Part shown: piece after piece, positions 2,010-12,988 of the stretch
Layout of the letters: each line of letters starts with the position of its first letter
Position numbering within the stretch: position 1 is the stretch's first letter
NCBI GenBank assembly: GCA_021789715.1
Contig: JAJYJE010000007.1
Location: 1 to 13,152, forward strand
Length of the DNA stretch: 13,152 bases
From: a bacterium
GTDB taxonomy: Bacteria > Patescibacteriota > Doudnabacteria > UBA920
Reading direction: 5' to 3'
Position numbers and translations under genes: made by a program
Notes under the pieces: generated by a model
What the model saw: only the letters and a program-made list of their open reading frames with translations
Databases searched by the model: none
What the model was told of the DNA's origin: nothing

Positions 2010-2369
2010 TCAAACGCCACAAGCTTTTCTTATCGTATCCAAAACTCCTGGCAGATTACCCCCGACATCTGAATTCCAAAAACGCAAGATTTTATAACCC
2101 CGGCTTTCTGTAAATCGTTGTTTGTTCCGATCCTTGTTTGCGATAGCGGGGGACGGATGCTGGCCGCCGTCTAACTCAATTAGCAGCATCTTTTCCCGGC
2201 AGCCAAAATCCAAAATCCATAAACCAACCTGGACCTGCCGTTTAAACTTTAAATCGTAAAATCTCCCGGCTCGTAAATATTTCCATAGCCGATCTTCCCA
2301 AGGTGTCTGCCGCTTTCGTAAGTTGCGTGCATGGGATAAAAACGGTTCAGGGATTATTCGCTTGACCAT
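2010..2369 (-). CDS. DUF559 family Vsr-like endonuclease
   Basis: This 119-residue protein has the single-domain layout of DUF559, a PD-(D/E)XK nuclease group related to very-short-patch-repair endonucleases. Visible marks are the N-terminal TPWEDRLWKYLR helix (E25), the LKFKRQVQVGLWILDF strand pair with D54, the core IELDGGQH (E65, D67, H71), the K84/R85 region and the C-terminal KILRFWNSDV strand. D54, E65 and D67 fit the expected metal-binding acidic set. The gene is enclosed by a 9-bp inverted repeat (1999-2007 and 2377-2385), with hairpins on both sides, and it sits alone between tgt and an unrelated gene. Stand-alone DUF559 genes often occur as scattered, mobile-looking units, so a selfish or repeat-associated role is plausible. 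Cleavage specificity is unknown. It ends in TGA, which supports standard code use. Confidence 0.85.
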   Translation of the reverse strand: MVKRIIPEPFLSHARNLRKRQTPWEDRLWKYLRAGRFYDLKFKRQVQVGLWILDFGCREKMLLIELDGGQHPSPAIANKDRNKQRFTESRGYKILRFWNSDVGGNLPGVLDTIRKACGV

Positions 2370-5377: not shown

Positions 5378-5782
5378 TTAAGGCTGAATTTTAGCCTGGC
5401 GCCTAGCCAGGACTTCTTTAATTTTACCTAAAATCTCATCCGGTGTAAAGTAGGCTTTCACCAAATATTCATCGACGTTATATGACTTTACCCGCAGTAT
5501 GTCGTTACTGCTCCAAATGTTGCTTAACACGATAATCGGCACGTTCGCGATCTGGGGATCGGGATTCTTTCGCAGCGCTTCCAAAACCGCGAAACCGTCC
5601 ATTTCCGGCATCATTAAATCGAGCATTACCAGATCCGGTTTCTCCCTTTCGATAACGGCGAGCCCTTCCTTGCCGTCCTGGGCGTCATGAACTGTAAAAC
5701 CGGCGGACGATAGCTTTCTAACGCTTATTTCCCGCATGGCATTGTCATCTTCCACAACAATGACTTTTGTTTGTTTTGGCAT
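5378..5782 (-). CDS. Single-domain response regulator (CheY-like receiver)
   Basis: This stand-alone receiver domain accepts phosphate from a histidine kinase and has no output domain, so it must act by protein contact or as a phosphorelay step. Numbered from the upstream ATG at 5788, the acidic pocket is E13/D14/D15 (VVEDD), the phosphoacceptor is D57 (VMLDLMMPEMDG), the switch Ser is S89 (IIVLSN) and the conserved Lys is K111 (YLVKAYFTPDEI). Subtract 2 for the start chosen here. The second ATG (5782) is preferred because AGAAAGGA lies 5 nt before it, whereas that site overlaps the first ATG. The gene shares a short divergent promoter region with the plus-strand dehydrogenase operon and lies 120 bp upstream of pnp. 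A membrane histidine kinase on the other strand (10848-12521) is a possible partner. Confidence 0.92.
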   Translation of the reverse strand: MPKQTKVIVVEDDNAMREISVRKLSSAGFTVHDAQDGKEGLAVIEREKPDLVMLDLMMPEMDGFAVLEALRKNPDPQIANVPIIVLSNIWSSNDILRVKSYNVDEYLVKAYFTPDEILGKIKEVLARRQAKIQP

Positions 5783-5800
5783 AGTCATCCTTTCTACCCT

Positions 5801-5829: not shown

Positions 5830-5842
5830 AGTGTGATATAAT
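5814..5842 (+). promoter_or_regulatory. Probable promoter of the dehydrogenase-ANL-ThiF-nitroreductase run
   Basis: TATAAT (5837-5842) is preceded by TG with one base between, giving TGATATAAT, an extended -10. The -35 position 17 bp upstream (TTATTA, 5814-5819) is poor. The transcript should begin near 5849, leaving a leader of only about 23 nt without a Shine-Dalgarno site before the ATGATG start. Confidence 0.6.
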
Positions 5843-5871: not shown

Positions 5872-6954
5872 ATGATGCCAAAATACAAACAATTTCCGGA
5901 ATATAAAAATCACGAAAAGATAATCGCACTCGATGACCCACCCTCCGGACTAAAGGGTTTTATAGCCATCCATAGCACTATGCGCGGTCCGGCGTTGGGG
6001 GGAACCAGGATTTTCCCTTACAAAAACCCAAATCAGGCTCTCAAAGATGCCCTTAAATTGTCTTCGGCCATGACCAACAAGTGCGTCATGGCCAAACTGC
6101 GTTTCGGCGGAGGCAAAGGCGTTATTATAGCGGATCCCAAAAGCAAAAACCTTTCCAGCCTGCTTCGCGCTTACGCCAAAAAAATCTCGGAACTCAAAGG
6201 TGAATTTTACACCGGAGAGGATGTCGGCTTAAACGAAACCGACGTTCAATACATGCTAAAATTCAGCCCCTACTTTATAGGAAAATCCGGCCAAGCCGGC
6301 GATCCTTCGCCGTTTGCCGCCCAAAGCGCTTTCCTCTGCGCCAGAACAGCCTGGAAGAGTCTCCGGGGCAGCAGCAATCTTTCCGGCTTGACCGTAGCCA
6401 TTAAAGGTGTGGGCAAGACCGGCAGCGCGCTGGCCAAACTCTTTGCCGCGGCCGGCAGCAAAGTAACGGTTGCGGACATTAATCCGCACGCAGTGAGAAC
6501 CCTGCAAAAAAGCCATCCCGCCATTTCCGCAATATCGATTAAAGCACTGCCCGATCTTCGCGCTGATATTTACGCTCCATGCGCTTTAGGATCCGATATT
6601 ACCCTAAAAAATTATAAACGGATAAAAGCGCGGCTCGTAGTGGGCACAGCCAACAACCAGTTGGAAAACCCGGAAGTCGCCCGACATTTGCATAACAACC
6701 ATATTTTACACGTACCTGACTATATAGCCAACGCTGGCGGCCTGATTGATGTGGCTGACGAGCTCTTGCCCGGCGGTTACAACGAACAACGAGTGCTCAA
6801 GAGCATTGCCAAACTTGAAGCGGTATTGGAACGAATTCTGGCTTTATCAAAAAAAGCAGGTATTAATCCTGACCAAGCGGCCGAACAAGAAGCCCAGCGC
6901 GTTCTGGCTCCAAAACAACCGCGCGTCAAAGCCGCGGAATCGGTTATCGCTTAA
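5872..6954 (+). CDS. Glu/Leu/Phe/Val dehydrogenase, leucine-dehydrogenase type
   Basis: NAD-dependent oxidative deamination of an amino acid to its 2-oxo acid, or the reverse reductive amination. At 360 residues it matches the leucine/phenylalanine/valine dehydrogenases and is shorter than glutamate dehydrogenases (about 410-450). The N-terminal catalytic domain has GPALGGTRI (39-47), K70 in SAMTNKCVMAK (substrate carboxylate), K82 in RFGGGKGVI (catalytic Lys) and D117 in YTGEDVG. The Rossmann domain has GVGKTG (179-184), and D202 in VADIN implies NAD rather than NADP. The motifs IYAPCALG, TANNQL and PDYIANAGGLIDVADEL complete the match. Leu/Val versus Phe preference cannot be read off. Two ATGs are adjacent (5872 and 5875). 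It is the first gene of a tight same-strand run, and the next gene starts 4 bp after its stop. It may supply or consume a 2-oxo acid or amino acid used by the following enzymes. Confidence 0.92.
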   Translation: MMPKYKQFPEYKNHEKIIALDDPPSGLKGFIAIHSTMRGPALGGTRIFPYKNPNQALKDALKLSSAMTNKCVMAKLRFGGGKGVIIADPKSKNLSSLLRAYAKKISELKGEFYTGEDVGLNETDVQYMLKFSPYFIGKSGQAGDPSPFAAQSAFLCARTAWKSLRGSSNLSGLTVAIKGVGKTGSALAKLFAAAGSKVTVADINPHAVRTLQKSHPAISAISIKALPDLRADIYAPCALGSDITLKNYKRIKARLVVGTANNQLENPEVARHLHNNHILHVPDYIANAGGLIDVADELLPGGYNEQRVLKSIAKLEAVLERILALSKKAGINPDQAAEQEAQRVLAPKQPRVKAAESVIA

Positions 6955-6958
6955 CGCT

Positions 6959-8446
6959 ATGAACAAAAAACACCCGCAAAGCCCTTCGGCGATTTTAGCT
7001 TCTTACTCGGCCAGACTTCCGTCGCTTTGGTCCAAACGGCAGCAAGCGTTTATGATGCGGCTATTTCGGCGCATGAGCCGGGAAATCCCGGCTTATAAAA
7101 AATTTTTGAGCGGCGCGGGCTTTAATCCAAAACGGGTAAAAACATTTGCCGACCTGGCCGCGGTGCCGCCTGCCAGCAAAGCGACCTACTTCCGCCGGTA
7201 TGCGCTTTCCGAATTATCCTGGGCCGGCGCGATGAAACAGAAAGGGCTGATTTTTACTTCCACTTCCGGCTCCACCGGCGAAGCGACGTATTTCGGACGC
7301 GATGATGCTGTGGATTGGCAATATTCGGTATTGTCGGAATTTTTCCTGCGCAACGGCCCCAAACGTCCGACGCTGCTGATTGACTGCTTCGGCATGGGCG
7401 TCTGGATCGGCGGCCTCATTACCTACCAGGCGTTCCGCTATGCGGCACTCCGCGGTTGGCCGGTAACTATCATTACTCCGGGCATCAATAAAAAAGAAAT
7501 TTTTCACGCACTCGAAAAGTTGGCACCGCAATTTGGCAGCGTTATTATAGCCGGCTACCCTCCGTTCGTAAAAGATATTATGGATGAAGCGGCCGCCGAA
7601 GGCATAAATTTTAAGCGATTGCACGTGCGGTTGCTATTCGCGGCGGAGAGCTTTACCGAAACGTTTCGCGACCACGCAGCCAAGCTCGCTGGAATAAAAA
7701 ACGTTTACCGCGACACCTTGAACCTCTACGGCAGCGCCGAACTTGGCGCCATGGCGTTTGAAACTCCGCTCGCCATCTTGATCCGGCGGCTCGCAACCCG
7801 GCATCCGGAAATTTACAAGAAACTGTTTGGGACCAGCCGCCTTCCGACCCTGGCCCAATATAATCCAGACTTTGTCAGCTTTACCGAAGAAAACCGCGAA
7901 ATCCTGATTAGCGCCGACAGCGCGGCGCCTTTCTTTAAATACAGCATCGGAGACAACGGCGGGGTCCATACCCTGGAAAATATTGAAAATATTTTTGGCA
8001 GCCATGGCCTAAATCTCCGGATTCTGGCCCGGCGCGAAGGCGTGGCTGTAACCACGTTGCCGTTCGTCTACATCCACGAGCGTTCCGACTTCAGCACAAA
8101 ACTCTACGGGGCCATTATCTACCCCCAGCATATCCGGGAAGCGCTTTACCAGCCGAAAATCTCCCGCTATGTCACGGGCAAATTCCACATGAAGACGACA
8201 ACCGACGCCAAACACAACCAGTTTCTGCAAATCGATCTGGAATTGCGCCGCGGCATTACGGAATCCTTGGCTGTCCTGAAACTTTGCCAAAAATCAATTG
8301 TTGCTTCGCTGCTGAAACACAACGCCGAATACAAAAATAATTATCAGGCAATCCCGGCTAAGGTCGTGCCCCGGATCAAATTTTGGCCGCATGAAGACCA
8401 TTCTTACTTTAAGCCGGGAATCAAGCAAACGTGGATCAGCAAATAA
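6959..8446 (+). CDS. Adenylate-forming enzyme, PaaK/CapK-like (phenylacetate-CoA ligase family)
   Basis: A 495-residue ANL-superfamily protein that should activate a carboxylate as an acyl-adenylate and may pass it to CoA or another acceptor. Motifs occur in order: the phosphate-binding loop STSGSTGEAT (101-110), YGSAELG (257-263, the Y-G-x-x-E motif) and YSIGDNGG (328-335) with the ribose-binding Asp D332. A C-terminal part follows, with KLYGAIIYPQHI (381-392) and a Lys-containing end (FKPGIKQTW). The shape resembles phenylacetate-CoA ligase/CapK-like proteins of cell-surface or secondary-metabolite loci more than acetyl-CoA synthetases. The frame is open further upstream into the dehydrogenase gene. 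The ATG at 6959, 4 bp after the dehydrogenase stop, is chosen because family similarity begins there. The substrate is unknown. Placement directly before a ThiF-like adenylating enzyme and a nitroreductase suggests a shared small-molecule pathway. Confidence 0.85.
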   Translation: MNKKHPQSPSAILASYSARLPSLWSKRQQAFMMRLFRRMSREIPAYKKFLSGAGFNPKRVKTFADLAAVPPASKATYFRRYALSELSWAGAMKQKGLIFTSTSGSTGEATYFGRDDAVDWQYSVLSEFFLRNGPKRPTLLIDCFGMGVWIGGLITYQAFRYAALRGWPVTIITPGINKKEIFHALEKLAPQFGSVIIAGYPPFVKDIMDEAAAEGINFKRLHVRLLFAAESFTETFRDHAAKLAGIKNVYRDTLNLYGSAELGAMAFETPLAILIRRLATRHPEIYKKLFGTSRLPTLAQYNPDFVSFTEENREILISADSAAPFFKYSIGDNGGVHTLENIENIFGSHGLNLRILARREGVAVTTLPFVYIHERSDFSTKLYGAIIYPQHIREALYQPKISRYVTGKFHMKTTTDAKHNQFLQIDLELRRGITESLAVLKLCQKSIVASLLKHNAEYKNNYQAIPAKVVPRIKFWPHEDHSYFKPGIKQTWISK

Positions 8447-8476
8447 TTTCTCTGCATTAAGCTGCGCCTTGAACTT

Positions 8477-9664
8477 ATGAAGAACCCACTCCAATCGCAT
8501 TTGCATAAAATCACTGGCGACGACAGGCGGCTACAGCCGATCTTTTACCGTCTACAGCGGCGGCAAGACGCTGCCGCATTGCGCAAACTGCTCAAAAGCC
8601 GGCAAGTGCTGGGCGTGAGCGATGATTATTCGGAACAGCTTAAGGAATTATATGCTATCAATCACCCCACCGAAGTCTACCAGCCCGACTTTCAACAACG
8701 CTTCCAAAAATTCCTTGCCTCGCTTGGCCCGCTGGCTGATCAGGGCGTGTGGGTGTATTTTCCCTGGAACGGCAACTTGGTTCACATTCTCCCGGAGCGC
8801 GACTTCTTTAAAGTCAGAACGGCGCGCAATCGCTATCTGATTAACGAAAAAGAGCAACAAAAATATTATGACGCGGTTATTGGAATCGGCGGCTTGAGCG
8901 TAGGAAATAGCGTCCTGCTGTCCATTGTCCTGCAAGGCGGCGGCCGGCACATCCGCATTGCCGACTTTGACCGCCTGGCGCTAAGCAATACCAATCGCGT
9001 GCGCGGCAGCATTACCGCCCTTGGCATGAAAAAGGCGGAGATGACCGCCAGACAAATTTACGAAATCAACCCCTTTGCCAAGATCGAGATTTTTGGCGAA
9101 GGGCTGACCCCGTCAAACATCGGAAAATTTTTTATCGGGCCGCCCAAACTCGATATCGTAATCGATGAGCTGGACAACATTGCCGTCAAATTTCTTATCC
9201 GCCAACAGGCGAAACAGCACCGCGTTCCCGTAATCATGGGGGCTGATGATGGCGATAACGCGGTTATCGATATTGAACGCTACGATTTAAAACCGGCGCC
9301 CAAATTCTTTCATGGCCGGCTCGGCAACGTAACCTACGAGCAACTGCGCGGCCTGGACAAATTCGGCATCGGCAAAACCATAACCCAGCACATTGGCCCG
9401 GAAAATATTACCGAACGGATGCAGCAATCGCTCCTTGCCATGGGAAAAACCATCGTATCGTGGCCGCAGCTCGGCGGCGCCGCCCTGCTTAACGGCTCTG
9501 CGGTGGCTTACTGCGTGCGCCGGATCGTTAACGGGCAAACTTTGGAACGAAACCGCAGCATCATTTCTTTGGACGAAAAGCTTATCCCCGATTACAATTC
9601 AAAAACCCAGCGCCGCAATCGAAACAAAATCGCCAATCAATTTAAAAAAATGTTCGGCCTATAA
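8477..9664 (+). CDS. E1/ThiF-like adenylating enzyme of the Rv1355c type
   Basis: The 395-residue protein has an N-terminal region of about 130 residues (with PWNGNLVHILPERDFFKVRT) and then an E1-like Rossmann domain. The ATP site is intact: GIGGLSVG (136-143), D163 and D165 in IADFDRLALSNTNR, R174, K185/K186 in GMKKAEMTARQI, and D233 in DELDN. The later IDIERYDLKPAPKFFHG region also fits the family. The pattern recalls the ThiF part of mycobacterial Rv1355c (labelled MoeY in some annotations), where it is fused to a nitroreductase domain; here that domain is the next gene. Only one Cys is present (C346), near the C-terminal dimer helix. There is no CxxC zinc pair and no cysteine in the crossover loop, so sulfur transfer or ubiquitin-like thioester chemistry is unlikely. 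Adenylation of a small-molecule or peptide carboxylate is a better guess. It starts 30 bp after the ANL gene. Confidence 0.85.
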   Translation: MKNPLQSHLHKITGDDRRLQPIFYRLQRRQDAAALRKLLKSRQVLGVSDDYSEQLKELYAINHPTEVYQPDFQQRFQKFLASLGPLADQGVWVYFPWNGNLVHILPERDFFKVRTARNRYLINEKEQQKYYDAVIGIGGLSVGNSVLLSIVLQGGGRHIRIADFDRLALSNTNRVRGSITALGMKKAEMTARQIYEINPFAKIEIFGEGLTPSNIGKFFIGPPKLDIVIDELDNIAVKFLIRQQAKQHRVPVIMGADDGDNAVIDIERYDLKPAPKFFHGRLGNVTYEQLRGLDKFGIGKTITQHIGPENITERMQQSLLAMGKTIVSWPQLGGAALLNGSAVAYCVRRIVNGQTLERNRSIISLDEKLIPDYNSKTQRRNRNKIANQFKKMFGL

Positions 9665-9668
9665 ACGC

Positions 9669-10706
9669 ATGGCTAAAAAAAACTACGAGTCCTGGAACAT
9701 AAAAATCGAAGATTTTCCCGCTGCCGGAACCCAACACGAACAGATCGAATTTCTAACCAGATTCGCGCTGCTCGCGCCTTCCGGCCACAACTCCCAACCG
9801 TGGCGCATACACGCTTCGGACAGTCAAGTCGCCCTCTATATTAATACCGGGCGCAACCTAAACCAAAGCGACCCGCAAGGCAGGCAGCTTTATATCAGCC
9901 TGGGCTGCTTTTTGGAAAATCTCTTTACAGCGGCGGATTTTTTCGGCTTTGCATTTCTGCCAACTTACAATTACCCGGACCCTTCGGACGGCGCCACACC
10001 GGTAGCTGAAATAACTTTCCAGAAACGTACACCCGCCGAACATAAAGACCGCCGCATGGTCCGCGCTATCATAGAGCGAAATTCCAACCGTTACCCCTAT
10101 CGGGACGAACCGTTACCGCAATCATTTATCGACTATGCCGGTACAATTATCGAGCCGCAAATCAAAATCTTCTTGCTGACCGATACGGCACAAAAAGATC
10201 AGGCTGCCAATATAATGGAAGATGCCCAGATTTACGCTATGGACAGCGCGGATTTCCGCAAAGAGCTTTCGGAATACATAAAATCCAGTTACACCGAAGA
10301 ACCGTACGGCATGCCGGGATTCACCCTGAATATCCCCGGACCAGTATCGATACTCGCCCCAAAACTCGCTAAAAATATCAACTTATCCCGGCTTTCAAAA
10401 AAACAAGACAGCGAACTCCTGCTGCGCCGCACCCCGGCCTTAGGGGTTATCTGCGCCAGCCAAGACTCCAGAGAAAACTGGCTGAGCGTCGGGCGCGTTT
10501 TCGAACGCGTATGGCTCCGGGCAACCTCTGACGGGATAGCTTTCTCCGTATGGGCGGCAGCCATTCAGCATGAAACCTTCCGCGCACGCCTCCAAAAAAT
10601 TCTTAATACTCCTTTGCTGCCCATGGCGGCTTTTCGGGCAGGTCTCCCAAAAACAAAACCCGGACACAGTCCGCGCTTTTCGCTCAAAGATCTTGCTGTA
10701 AGATAA
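9669..10706 (+). CDS. Nitroreductase-fold FMN enzyme (Acg / Rv1355c C-terminal type)
   Basis: A 345-residue protein of the Acg-like branch of the nitroreductase superfamily. Marks are LLAPSGHNSQPWRI (about 34-47, FMN phosphate and ring contacts), RNSNRYPYRDEPLP (middle region), a PYGMPGFTL loop and the late LSVGRVFERVWLRATSDGIAFSVW helix that closes the flavin pocket. The long two-half layout fits Acg and the C-terminal part of Rv1355c better than classic 200-residue NfsB enzymes. No export signal is present, so it should be cytoplasmic. The frame is open upstream inside the ThiF-like gene. The ATG at 9669, 4 bp after that stop, is chosen because the conserved part starts there, giving an almost continuous ThiF-nitroreductase unit. 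The expected chemistry is FMN-dependent oxidation or reduction of an activated substrate, or storage of FMN as proposed for Acg. The substrate is unknown. Confidence 0.85.
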   Translation: MAKKNYESWNIKIEDFPAAGTQHEQIEFLTRFALLAPSGHNSQPWRIHASDSQVALYINTGRNLNQSDPQGRQLYISLGCFLENLFTAADFFGFAFLPTYNYPDPSDGATPVAEITFQKRTPAEHKDRRMVRAIIERNSNRYPYRDEPLPQSFIDYAGTIIEPQIKIFLLTDTAQKDQAANIMEDAQIYAMDSADFRKELSEYIKSSYTEEPYGMPGFTLNIPGPVSILAPKLAKNINLSRLSKKQDSELLLRRTPALGVICASQDSRENWLSVGRVFERVWLRATSDGIAFSVWAAAIQHETFRARLQKILNTPLLPMAAFRAGLPKTKPGHSPRFSLKDLAVR

Positions 10707-10847: not shown

Positions 10848-12521
10848 ATGCCATTAAATCTAGGTTCTTTTTCCGTAACGATCGCCATTGTCGGCAACCT
10901 CATTCTCGGTTTTATCGTATTCTTCTCCAGGAAAAAAAGCGCCACCTCGGTACTGTTTTTATTGCTGACAATATCAATATCGTTATGGAGCCTTGTTAAT
11001 TTTTTATCATACCAAAATGCCGATCCGGCTACGGTCGCGGTTCTAGTGAGGCTGGTGATGTTCTTTGCCGTGCCTATTGGCACGCTGTTTTTGTTTTTTA
11101 CCTACACCTTCCCGCACGATAAATTCGCCGTTCGCAAAGAGTACGCGGCCGTACTTATTTCCTATTCCATTTTTGTGATGATCGCGACTTTGACTCCGTT
11201 GATATTTTCCCAAGTAAACGTTTCCACTGGCTCCGCCCCGGAACCGGTTATCGCGCCGGGGATATTGATGTTTATTATAATCCCCGTACTGGCTATCCTG
11301 CTGGGTATTCTCTTATTGGCAAAACGCACGCTGCAGTCCCCGCCTGATACCAAAAAGCAATATCGCCTATTCTCCGCCGGCGCATCCATAATGTTCGGGC
11401 TCATTCTTATATTTAATTTTTTACTGCCCTCATTTTTTAACAATTCTCGGTTTATCCCCTTTAGCGCCATTTTTACTTTGCCTTTTGTCGCTTTTACGGC
11501 TTACGCCATATTCAAGCACCATCTGCTAAATTTAAAGATTATCACCACTGAAGTACTGACTTTTCTTTTGGTTCTGGCGACAGCGGCGGAGATTATCTTA
11601 TCCTCCAACTTACCGGAAATTATATTCCGCTTCAGCATAGTACTTTTGGTGTTAGGGGTAGGCATTTCGCTCATCCGCAGCGTGCGGAAGGAAGTCGAAC
11701 AGCGCGAATTATTGGAAAGGCTTACCGCCCAGCTCGAGAACGCCAACGGGAAGCTCAAGGCCTTGGACCAAGCCCGAAGCGAATTTATCACCATCGCCTC
11801 CCACCAGTTACGCACGCCGCCGGCAACTATCAAGTGGTTCCTGAGCTCCTTGTTGGGCGGCGATTACGGGCCGCTGACCGATGACCAAAAACAAGCCCTG
11901 ACCAAAGCGGAACGGACCAATAATTCCCAAATCTCGCTTATTGAAGATATGCTAAACGTCTCCCGCATCGAACGCGGCAAAATGGAATTTTTGTTCGAAC
12001 CCGCCGATCTGCTCGATCTGGCGGATACCACGTGCGAACAATTGCTGCCGATCGCCCAAGAAAAACACTTAGAACTGATCTTTGAAAAACCCGCGTTCAA
12101 TCCGCCCCAGATAACCGTAGATAAAGAAAAAATCCGCCAGGTTATGAACAACCTGATCGACAATGCCATTAAATACACCAAAAGCGGACAAATTACCGTA
12201 CGGCTAACCTTTGACTTTAACGAACTGCGATTTAGCGTTACAGACACCGGAAAGGGTTTTGGACCCGAAGAAAAAAACGCGATGTTTGACAAATTCTCCC
12301 GCGGCAAAGAGTCTATAAAACATAGCGCCGGACTGGGCCTCGGGCTGTATGTGGCCAAAGTCATTATCGACCAACATAAAGGCAAGATATGGGCTGAAAG
12401 CCCGGGCGAAGGACAGGGTTCAACCTTTACTTTTGCCATACCCATTAATAACGGGCTTTCCGCCACGACCCTTATTGATCTTACCCGGCAACAGCCGGCC
12501 ATAACAAAAGCCTCTCCTTAA
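10848..12521 (+). CDS. Membrane sensor histidine kinase
   Basis: A 557-residue kinase with a multi-pass N-terminal sensor and a complete cytoplasmic core. Residues 8-275 hold about eight hydrophobic segments (roughly 8-27, 33-53, 65-87, 98-120, 138-158, 175-195, 203-222 and 236-275), in the manner of 7TM-type kinase sensor regions. A coiled linker (about 278-308, EVEQRELLERLTAQLENANGK) leads to the phosphoacceptor H319 in ASHQLRTPP. The ATPase domain has the N box (NNLIDNAIKYT, N439), G1 (DTGKGFG, 466-472), an F box (FDKFSRG) and G2 (GLGLGLYVAK, 495-504). The H box reads HQLRTPPATIKW, where HQLRTPLTAIKW is more usual. No receiver gene is adjacent; the single-domain regulator at 5378-5782 is the only candidate in the window. 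The last codons lie inside a terminator palindrome and overlap the convergent gene by 4 bp. Confidence 0.93.
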   Translation: MPLNLGSFSVTIAIVGNLILGFIVFFSRKKSATSVLFLLLTISISLWSLVNFLSYQNADPATVAVLVRLVMFFAVPIGTLFLFFTYTFPHDKFAVRKEYAAVLISYSIFVMIATLTPLIFSQVNVSTGSAPEPVIAPGILMFIIIPVLAILLGILLLAKRTLQSPPDTKKQYRLFSAGASIMFGLILIFNFLLPSFFNNSRFIPFSAIFTLPFVAFTAYAIFKHHLLNLKIITTEVLTFLLVLATAAEIILSSNLPEIIFRFSIVLLVLGVGISLIRSVRKEVEQRELLERLTAQLENANGKLKALDQARSEFITIASHQLRTPPATIKWFLSSLLGGDYGPLTDDQKQALTKAERTNNSQISLIEDMLNVSRIERGKMEFLFEPADLLDLADTTCEQLLPIAQEKHLELIFEKPAFNPPQITVDKEKIRQVMNNLIDNAIKYTKSGQITVRLTFDFNELRFSVTDTGKGFGPEEKNAMFDKFSRGKESIKHSAGLGLGLYVAKVIIDQHKGKIWAESPGEGQGSTFTFAIPINNGLSATTLIDLTRQQPAITKASP

Positions 12522-12533
12522 GGAGAGGCTTTT
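12506..12533. terminator. Perfect 28-bp palindrome, two-way terminator inside overlapping 3' ends
   Basis: AAAAGCCTCTCCTT (12506-12519) is followed at once by its exact reverse complement (12520-12533). In RNA this gives a GC-rich stem ending in UUUU in either direction. It contains the stop codons of both convergent genes (12519-12521 plus, 12520-12518 minus). The CTCTCCTT/AAGGAGAG core is the same as in the hairpin at 2429-2446. Confidence 0.85.
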
Positions 12534-12919
12534 AAATCTTTCATGCTGCCCAAAATTTCTTCCTCGAAGTGAAGCAGGAAGGGAGCGGGATCGGGAGTGC
12601 TGCCGAACAAAATGTGCTCCACGCTATTGCGCTGGCCGCGGTTTTTGGCGCTGCCTACGCCTTTATTCTGGAACCATTCCTGCCATTTTTCGCTAAACTC
12701 CTTATAGCCCTCGCTGCCTTCGGGACCATACGTCGCGTAGATCACGTCATATTTGGTCTTGTCGCAAATATTAATGAACTCGCTTTTTTCTTCCAAGCTA
12801 AGAAATCCGTTTTTCTGCAAATTAGCCTTTAAGATCTGGGTTTTGGGATTGGTGTAAATCGCCTGGCTGATCTTAATGCCCAGAGTGATCCATTCTCTCT
12901 CAAACTTATTGATATCCAT
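12518..12919 (-). CDS. Hypothetical protein, 133 residues
   Basis: I do not recognise this protein. It is soluble and mixed alpha/beta in appearance, with no signal peptide or membrane segment. Notable stretches are MDINKFEREWITLGIKISQA, then FLSLEEKSEFINICDKTKYD, an aromatic YKEFSEKWQEWFQNKGVG region, and a C-terminal VEHILFGSTPDPAPFLLHFE before EEILGSMKDLKASP. It has one Cys, in INICDK. The ATG at 12919 is chosen. The frame also opens at a TTG at 12982, which would add 21 residues and leave almost no gap to rpsO, but the added segment looks like translated intergenic DNA and no ribosome binding site supports either start. It follows rpsO in the same direction and may be read from the rpsO transcript. 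Its last four residues (KASP) match those of the convergent kinase because both stops lie in one palindrome. Confidence 0.75.
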   Translation of the reverse strand: MDINKFEREWITLGIKISQAIYTNPKTQILKANLQKNGFLSLEEKSEFINICDKTKYDVIYATYGPEGSEGYKEFSEKWQEWFQNKGVGSAKNRGQRNSVEHILFGSTPDPAPFLLHFEEEILGSMKDLKASP

Positions 12920-12930
12920 AAAGTGACGTT

Positions 12931-12942
12931 TGGCAGCTGCCA
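12931..12942. repeat. 12-bp perfect palindrome between rpsO and the hypothetical gene
   Basis: TGGCAGCTGCCA lies 11 bp upstream of the ATG at 12919. It could be a small RNA hairpin or a protein-binding site. No T-run follows in the minus direction, so it is not an obvious terminator. Confidence 0.4.
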
Positions 12943-12988
12943 CGCGGCTCTTGGCTGTAAAATTCCAAAGGTTAAATATCAAATGCTT

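Follow-up and report, generated by a model that had tools for sequence, protein, structure and literature searches.

A conserved Patescibacteria gene run with a linked 7TM histidine kinase: a possible synthase and sensor of an oxazolone-type signal

The gene run and its neighbourhood in relatives

The window, as we call the whole stretch of 13,152 nucleotides that was analysed, comes from an 834 kb Patescibacteria-type MAG that is 78% complete. It carries four same-strand genes at 5872-10706 with gaps of 4, 30 and 4 bp, an arrangement that was confirmed on re-analysis (Table 1). In ORFs called by script, starts were set mechanically at the first ATG, GTG or TTG. The extended -10 element is present in three copies in the window, compared with 0.27 expected from shuffling.

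Table 1. Genes and other features of the window
Feature	Position	Strand	Evidence
Single-domain response regulator, candidate partner	5378..5788	- (divergent)	PF00072 82.2 bits
Extended -10 promoter element TGATATAAT	5834..5842	+	Exact match
ELFV amino acid dehydrogenase, leucine/phenylalanine/tryptophan-type	5872..6954	+	PF02812 80.8 bits, PF00208 60.4 bits, both above cut-off
PaaK-like ANL adenylating ligase	6959..8446	+	Fold and adenylation motifs
ThiF/E1-like cyclase, TrzS (Rv1355c N-half) family	8477..9664	+	NF005901 match
Nitroreductase-fold FMN oxidoreductase, Acg type	9669..10706	+	NF047509 214.7 bits, cut-off 199
7TM sensor histidine kinase, candidate receptor	10848..12521	+	HisKA_7TM, HisKA and HATPase_c above cut-off

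The preliminary description had treated the four enzyme genes as one unit, an idea that would have failed if the four were adjacent only here. Their adjacency is kept elsewhere: all 19 other genomes with a strong ThiF match in a sample of relatives have the ANL and nitroreductase genes in the same run, and 18 of the 19 have the kinase there as well (truncated in one of them where the contig stops), the contig of the remaining genome stopping just past the nitroreductase gene. We also compared 70 evaluable loci, each a distinct neighbourhood of a ThiF homologue that extends 4.5 kb or more to either side; one set of neighbourhood loci consisted of the best 80 of 141 relatives. A PaaK-like ANL gene is linked to the ThiF gene in 64 of the 70 loci and a 7TM histidine kinase gene in 58, in every case on the ThiF strand, and a nitroreductase gene lies within 5 kb in 58; kinase and nitroreductase are each missing from 12 loci. 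The four together are complete in 49 of the 70, and in 19 a response regulator gene lies 5 kb or less from the ThiF gene. The commoner core is ANL ligase, ThiF, nitroreductase and histidine kinase, with the dehydrogenase as an exchangeable accessory. The linkage first described therefore stands, but the four-gene unit was drawn too narrowly and we rejected it: the kinase, which had been missed, belongs to the module with the enzyme run, and the dehydrogenase is optional. A further cluster protein, of the L014/L060 type and 303-349 aa long, matches methyltransferases weakly at best (0.0067) or not at all.

The housekeeping genes tgt and pnp flank the run in the window, and nothing else favours the view that housekeeping enzymes came together here by chance or only locally. 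Such an arrangement is very improbable given linkage that is conserved across Patescibacteria lineages, and the neighbourhood data refute it. The same comparative evidence supports the earlier proposal of a dedicated pathway for a small molecule that derives from an amino acid.

Enzymes of the run

The ThiF-like protein matches NF005901, the TrzS family model, with 321.8 bits over residues 14-386, nearly its full length and including the N-terminal region, a score below the cut-off of 476 bits of a model that also includes the flavin half. The family is that of the N-half of Rv1355c (TrzS). NF005901 is matched at 1e-10 by 42 of 42 relatives, and the tie to TrzS, TyzB and OxzB is made through this NCBIfam model. 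TcdA, MccB and PaaA are also matched by the window protein, and the closest solved relative is AclA (9egb, named by its title). We did not adopt molybdopterin or thiamine activation (MoeB, MoeZ and ThiF models give 34-61 bits vs 322 for the TrzS family) or sulfur-carrier activation (no cysteine is among the conserved ThiF columns). As described in PMC10404671 and PMC12856293, the known oxazolone synthetase pair consists of a ThiF protein and a nitroreductase-fold oxidase (OxzB, TyzBC, TrzS), and TrzS is a proven ThiF cyclase and flavin desaturase whose products are tryptazolones (PMC12856293). The preliminary description knew of no named pathway with this set of enzymes; that view has to be given up for ThiF plus nitroreductase, for which oxazolone synthesis (OxzAB, TyzACB, TrzAS) is the precedent in the same papers.

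The main caveat of an oxazolone reading is the flavin enzyme, since by its model scores the window nitroreductase is of the Acg type (214.7 bits vs 69.1 for the TrzS family model), unlike 7 of the 10 hand-picked cluster nitroreductases scanned from relatives, which are nearer the C-half of TrzS; the other three are nearer Acg. Compared with the window's enzyme, 9 of 39 other cluster nitroreductases have 29-40% identity and 30 have 19-24%. On current data the Acg-type group (FDO-B) has no part in oxazolone synthesis, according to PMC10404671, and the published desaturases require O2. The pathway might therefore be real and its product not an oxazolone, the ThiF-like enzyme cyclising or activating some other carboxylate and the Acg-type enzyme performing some other redox step, as the varied chemistry of the ThiF fold and the 12 loci without a nitroreductase would also allow. 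We consider this unlikely, because the window ThiF belongs specifically to the TrzS family, because most of the scanned flavin enzymes are closer to TrzS than to Acg, and because ThiF and flavin domain form a single fusion protein in L031/L085 (one genome) and in L094.

Among solved chains, those closest to the dehydrogenase belong to leucine dehydrogenases, for example 3vpx and 1leh, and the tryptophan dehydrogenase 5b37 ranks sixth; the score with the ScyB (tryptophan dehydrogenase) equivalog NF035922 is 262.3 bits, below its cut-off of 600. It is the sole ELFV gene found in the window's incomplete genome, and K70 and K82, which we take to be the catalytic lysines, are conserved in 24 sequences. 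The slot it occupies is filled by a dehydrogenase in 22 of the evaluable loci, an aromatic lyase in 6 and an aminotransferase in 6, and never (0/70) by two deaminase types together. On a quick ThiF tree with long branches (48 labelled tips) these types require at least 10 swaps, compared with a mean of 17.4 (range 12-19) in 500 shuffles. The two lyase variants scanned are nearest the FlxA type (594 and 610 bits vs FlxA, a tyrosine ammonia-lyase, cut-off 700), and two scanned aminotransferase variants resemble HisC, with 245 and 227 bits (cut-off 276). Our guess is that the amino acid substrate of the pathway is aromatic. The remaining 36 loci have no deaminase gene, which counts against the proposed pathway.

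The ANL ligase has a PaaK-like fold with the adenylation motifs, but is not placed in the phenylacetate-CoA ligase equivalog TIGR02155 (37.9 vs 646.3 bits) and matches the FlxY model weakly (18 bits). PaaK relatives usually make CoA thioesters, which counts against the role proposed for it here. The predicted fold is similar to GH3 as well as to other PaaK-family ligases, from which we would guess that the enzyme may form an amide. The window contains no amino acid N-acyltransferase, and a FeeM/LuxI-type model built from 4 sequences finds no acyltransferase at 60 bits within 5 kb of the ThiF gene in any of 103 ThiF loci. When 90 same-strand neighbours that lacked a label (70 loci) were scanned against Pfam, no acyltransferase family with at least two members was among the matches listed, which cover 25 of 78 families, so that a lone acyltransferase is possible. 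In one locus, L147, a low-scoring acyltransferase match (35.7 bits) lies between the ThiF and kinase genes; its ThiF better fits the short-ThiF model. In addition, neither CoaE nor a ketoacyl synthase was found in any of 19 ThiF-containing genomes of the window's order (19 of 20, G015 being omitted; 18 are at least 90% complete). With no linked N-acyltransferase and no CoaE or ketoacyl synthase, the ANL ligase probably replaces the acyl-CoA N-acyltransferase of the known oxazolone pathways. Uptake of CoA from outside is possible and weighs against a CoA-free reading.

The linked sensor kinase family

The kinase scores 54.4 bits with HisKA_7TM, 48.5 with HisKA and 95 with HATPase_c, and H319, N435, D466, G468 and G470 are conserved in 58 sequences. 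This ThiF occurs in 37 of 286 genomes of the phylum. The kinase lies no more than 6 kb away in 31 of the 37, or in 24 of 37 when identified with Pfam model PF16927, which is independent of the cluster; alignment A5 of the sensor was made from cluster kinases, and its scores favour them. Genomes with this ThiF have the sensor in 32 of 37 cases, those without it in 60 of 249 (Fisher p 2.6e-13, uncorrected for kinship). In the latter, kinases of the same family lie directly downstream of other small-molecule enzymes. Among 90 ORFs upstream of 55 kinases (from 65 kinases in 62 loci, part of all sensor matches) we found 14 ThiF, 12 methyltransferase, 6 FeeM, 5 Autoind_synth (LuxI-type) and 5 acyltransferase matches. 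The control was 90 distant ORFs of the same loci, drawn randomly from 179 and each at least 150 aa, a floor that the upstream set lacks; it gave at most 4 methyltransferases, and, since the 25 of 152 families listed all have at least two members, at most 2 ThiF proteins in 90. A linked kinase may respond to a molecule other than the operon's product.

Alternatively, the operon might yield an N-acyl amino acid product, of the oxazolone type or another, that acts as an antimicrobial, in the membrane as a lipid, or as a metabolite of stress, with the kinase regulating the operon in response to another cue such as a host metabolite. The kinase was not found in the 12 loci noted above, so the enzymes may stand alone; the 60 genomes that have the sensor and lack this ThiF fit the same idea, and stress and antimicrobial roles are discussed in PMC12856293. 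We nevertheless regard it as rather unlikely, because the sensor family also accompanies signal-type synthases of unrelated kinds, including LuxI/FeeM-like acyltransferases, which points to product sensing.

A possible signalling module and its relation to known systems

What the analysis shows is gene content, conservation, family relationships and predicted folds. We think it possible, at slightly below an even chance, that the run and the kinase are one module, a CoA-independent synthase of a cyclised N-acyl amino acid of the oxazolone type and the kinase that senses it. The dehydrogenase (elsewhere the aromatic ammonia-lyase or aminotransferase) would deaminate an amino acid, probably an aromatic one, to a 2-oxo or acrylic acid, and the PaaK-like ligase would use ATP to activate that or another free acid and couple it to an amino acid at the amino group of the latter. 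By the chemistry of published homologues, the ThiF-like enzyme would then adenylate the N-acyl amino acid at its carboxylate and close a five-membered ring, which the flavin enzyme would desaturate. Finally, the 7TM histidine kinase would detect the product and signal to a response regulator. We infer both the amino-acid-derived, oxazolone-type identity of the product and its sensing by the kinase.

The conserved pairing of synthase and kinase suggests that cells as minimal as these produce a chemical signal of their own and respond to it. A wider and more tentative proposal is that Patescibacteria commonly signal, by a system that the papers found do not describe, with a CoA-free oxazolone-type autoinducer made from amino acids by the ANL ligase, TrzS-like cyclase and flavin enzyme and received by the dedicated 7TM kinase, related kinases being a general receptor family with interchangeable synthases; these would be the ANL/ThiF/flavin set, a LuxI/FeeM-like enzyme plus short ThiF, a methyltransferase plus short ThiF, and a ketosynthase III-like enzyme. 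A December 2025 paper (PMC12856293) names what bacterial oxazolones do in physiology as a major unresolved question. With genes of the oxazolone-synthetase type conserved next to a single family of sensor kinases, a part in signalling can be put directly to the test. If the proposal is true, the oxazolone class would gain its first receptor and a first clear function, judging by the papers found. The linkage also bears on possible communication of Patescibacteria, which are genome-reduced and mostly uncultured, among themselves or with hosts, and it gives a simple search rule, namely to look for candidate signal synthases upstream of this 7TM kinase. Our open-access literature search found no paper joining Patescibacteria, ThiF and nitroreductase, and none joining oxazolone, ThiF and histidine kinase.

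We compared the module with the nearest known systems. The TrzAS tryptazolone pathway (Rv1356c-Rv1355c, PMC12856293) shares the NCBIfam ThiF cyclase family, an adjacent or fused nitroreductase-fold flavin enzyme and a predicted amino acid substrate; it differs in that here an N-acyltransferase was not found, an ANL ligase and a deaminase are present instead, the window's flavin enzyme is Acg-type, a 7TM kinase is linked and CoaE was not found in the 19 genomes. OxzAB and TyzACB (PMC10404671) follow the same logic of acylation, ATP-dependent cyclisation and flavin desaturation, and tyz likewise has ThiF and FDO as separate genes, whereas here the acyltransferase (OxzA/TyzA) is apparently replaced and a kinase gene is linked. 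In the predicted CPR quorum-sensing pairs (PMC7567580) a signal synthase gene also adjoins a sensory kinase gene, but the enzymes are others (CqsA, LuxI and PpyS homologues), and the words "ThiF" and "oxazolone" are absent from the main text of that paper. Finally, the flexirubin enzymes FlxA and FlxY recall the lyase variants and, weakly, the ANL ligase, but here lyase and ligase adjoin the ThiF/flavin pair.

Conservation of the run and its variable deaminase slot

The dehydrogenase (LDH), adenylating ligase (ANL), ThiF and nitroreductase (NTR) genes occupy a single strand at 5872–10706 with gaps of 4, 30 and 4 bp, as the preliminary description stated, and the extended -10 promoter it placed ahead of them matches exactly at 5834–5842 (the window is contig C110 in an assembly of 834 kb, completeness 78%). 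When ThiF was searched for in 60 genomes, that of the window and those of its relatives, 21 gave matches, including the window's own genome and one with a weak match (1e-5). The remaining 19 bear out the linkage for which a co-occurrence check in related genomes had been proposed, since ANL and nitroreductase share the run with ThiF in all 19. The gene that follows the four in the window, a 7TM histidine kinase (HK), belongs to the run in 18 of these, although one copy is truncated where its contig ends; the nineteenth (locus L016) lies on a contig that stops just past the nitroreductase. We collected 103 distinct ThiF loci, 70 of them evaluable (at least 4.5 kb on each side of ThiF). Within 5 kb of ThiF, these 70 have ANL in 64 (6 are without it), nitroreductase in 58 and the kinase in 58 (none seen in 12 in either case), all three together in 49, and a response regulator in 19; the commonest orders are ANL-ThiF-NTR-HK (n=17) and LDH-ANL-ThiF-NTR-HK (n=13). 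The run is almost certainly a real, conserved pathway module; this likelihood, like those given below for product, sensing and the two combined, is a judgement and was not computed.

From a scan of public genomes that found 141 relatives we retained the best 80; we take the lineage-named members of these 80 to be Patescibacteria candidate phyla, apart from two MAG contigs, one labelled Planctomycetota and the other Nitrospirae. The former (L080) carries the ANL-ThiF-NTR cluster and a 7TM kinase and the latter (L086) the ANL-ThiF-NTR cluster; their labels may reflect either misbinned Patescibacteria contigs or gene transfer.

The deaminase position varies. The 19 ThiF genomes have a dehydrogenase in 10, an aromatic amino acid lyase instead in 8 (PF00221 in both of two scanned) and neither in one, at a contig edge. 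The 70 evaluable loci have, within 5 kb of ThiF, a dehydrogenase in 22, a lyase in 6, an aminotransferase in 6 and none in 36, and no locus (0/70) has two. Mapped on the ThiF tree, the slot has switched at least 10 times among three enzyme classes; it would provide acids derived from amino acids.

Other genes were also seen. Downstream of the window kinase lies an ORF of 154 aa that matches nothing in Pfam and is kept in 6 of 20 relative loci (65–77% identity), and a DUF559 protein gene (106 bits) is flanked by tgt and pnp. A protein of ~303–349 aa recurs either downstream of NTR or between the ThiF and kinase genes (L014, L039, L057, L060, L086, L092); its similarity to methyltransferases is very weak at best. 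Alpha/beta hydrolase families matched 4 of 90 unlabelled cluster neighbours, a scan that included two ~290 aa proteins (L144, L148), hydrolase-like by eye, between ThiF and kinase.

Probable oxazolone-type chemistry without a linked N-acyltransferase

In the TyzACB (PMC10404671) and TrzAS (PMC12856293) systems, N-acyl amino acids become oxazolones through ring closure by a ThiF homologue and desaturation by an oxidase of the nitroreductase fold. The window ThiF belongs by match to the family of TrzS, which is Rv1355c. Whereas the first step in both systems is an acyl-CoA N-acyltransferase, no linked one was found at our loci: a model from four FeeM/LuxI-type sequences gave no match at 60 bits within 5 kb of ThiF (0/103 loci), and when 90 unlabelled neighbours on ThiF's strand in the 70 loci were scanned with Pfam, no acyltransferase family with two or more members was among the matches listed. 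The sole weak match (35.7 bits, some masked letters) is at L147, one of the 103 loci, which resembles the short-ThiF kind described below: it has a 7TM kinase, lacks both ANL and nitroreductase, and its ThiF better fits the short-ThiF model (136 vs 119 bits). CoaE and ketoacyl synthase gave no match in 19 cluster-bearing genomes (of 20 in the order), 18 of them at least 90% complete; control searches matched in 10/14 and 14/14, respectively. An ATP-dependent ligase using free acids would suit such cells, which may alternatively take up CoA. On balance we consider an oxazolone-type product fairly probable.

The window nitroreductase scores 214.7 bits as Acg-type vs 69.1 with the TrzS family model. 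Ten other cluster nitroreductases scanned comprise 3 of Acg type and 7 that score higher as TrzS than as Acg (best match PRK14851 in six, TrzS in one). Since Acg-type enzymes (FDO-B) have, according to PMC10404671, no role in oxazolone synthesis on current data, the window may hold a modified version of the pathway. Thirty-nine cluster nitroreductases compared with the window's (9669–10706) fall into two types, nine that group with it at 29–40% identity (L019, L028, L032, L047, L052, L054, L056, L074, L078) and 30 at 19–24%. ThiF and nitroreductase do not always travel together, since their identities to the window are 66% and 24% at L023 vs 53% and 39% at L028.

The linked 7TM kinase and its other neighbours

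Window-type ThiF is present in 37 of 286 phylum genomes, and the sensor kinase lies within 6 kb of it in 31 of the 37 (24 by the cluster-independent Pfam model PF16927). It was not found there in G085, G112, G137, G176, G178 and G194; in G178 a weaker kinase relative adjoins ANL and ThiF. The sensor is also present in 60 of the 249 phylum genomes without window-type ThiF. Among 21 relatives lacking ThiF, a near full-length kinase match occurs in G041 only, that of G012 is partial and lies at the end of its contig, 10 more match in the kinase core alone, and nine have none at 1e-40. Sensing of the product by the linked kinase seems marginally favoured; CoA-free synthesis of an oxazolone-type product combined with such sensing is a more tentative proposal, against which we counted the O2 requirement of the oxazolone desaturases studied.

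Signalling is among the possible oxazolone roles already raised in PMC12856293. Quorum sensing has been predicted for CPR bacteria, with CqsA, LuxI and PpyS homologues adjoining sensory kinases, in a paper (PMC7567580) whose main text lacks the words ThiF and oxazolone. Our open-access literature search found no paper that links oxazolone and ThiF to a histidine kinase, and none that brings Patescibacteria together with ThiF and nitroreductase; the novelty apparently lies in the conserved, seemingly CoA-free cluster plus its kinase.

In the genomes without window-type ThiF we examined 65 kinases in 62 loci, and 55 of these kinases are preceded within 150 bp by a gene on their own strand. Taking up to two upstream ORFs per kinase gave 90 ORFs, including as candidate synthases ThiF (14), methyltransferase (12), FeeM (6), Autoind_synth (5) and acyltransferase (5); the control, 90 of the 179 distant ORFs in these loci, contained no more than 2 ThiF and 4 methyltransferases. 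Four upstream neighbours scanned singly exceeded the FeeM cut-off, and two also the Autoind_synth cut-off.

Coordinates of candidate synthase genes beside sensor-family kinases and of other genes noted
Feature	Location	Strand	Remark
Short ThiF (259–283 aa) + FeeM/LuxI-type acyltransferase, immediately 5' of sensor-family 7TM kinase	L119:6272-7796		genome without window-type ThiF
Short ThiF (259–283 aa) + FeeM/LuxI-type acyltransferase, immediately 5' of sensor-family 7TM kinase	L123:6150-7631		genome without window-type ThiF
Short ThiF (259–283 aa) + FeeM/LuxI-type acyltransferase, immediately 5' of sensor-family 7TM kinase	L134:5532-6996		genome without window-type ThiF
Ketosynthase III-like protein upstream of sensor-family kinase	L125:8010-9143	-	
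PlsC-type acyltransferase + 385 aa reductase-like protein upstream of sensor-family kinase	L035:5202-7064		
PlsC-type acyltransferase + reductase-like gene upstream of sensor-family kinase	L136:5234-7080		models partly built from L136 itself
ThiF, weak acyltransferase match, 7TM kinase	L147:3726-7841	-	
~303–349 aa protein	L014:10148-11062		
~290 aa protein	L144:8480-9355	+	
~290 aa protein	L148:6350-7234	-	
154 aa ORF	window 12518-12982	-	
DUF559 protein gene	window 2010-2369	-	

At L159, L161, L174 and L183 the kinase is immediately preceded by a short ThiF and a weakly methyltransferase-like gene, a pair that may represent another kind of synthase.
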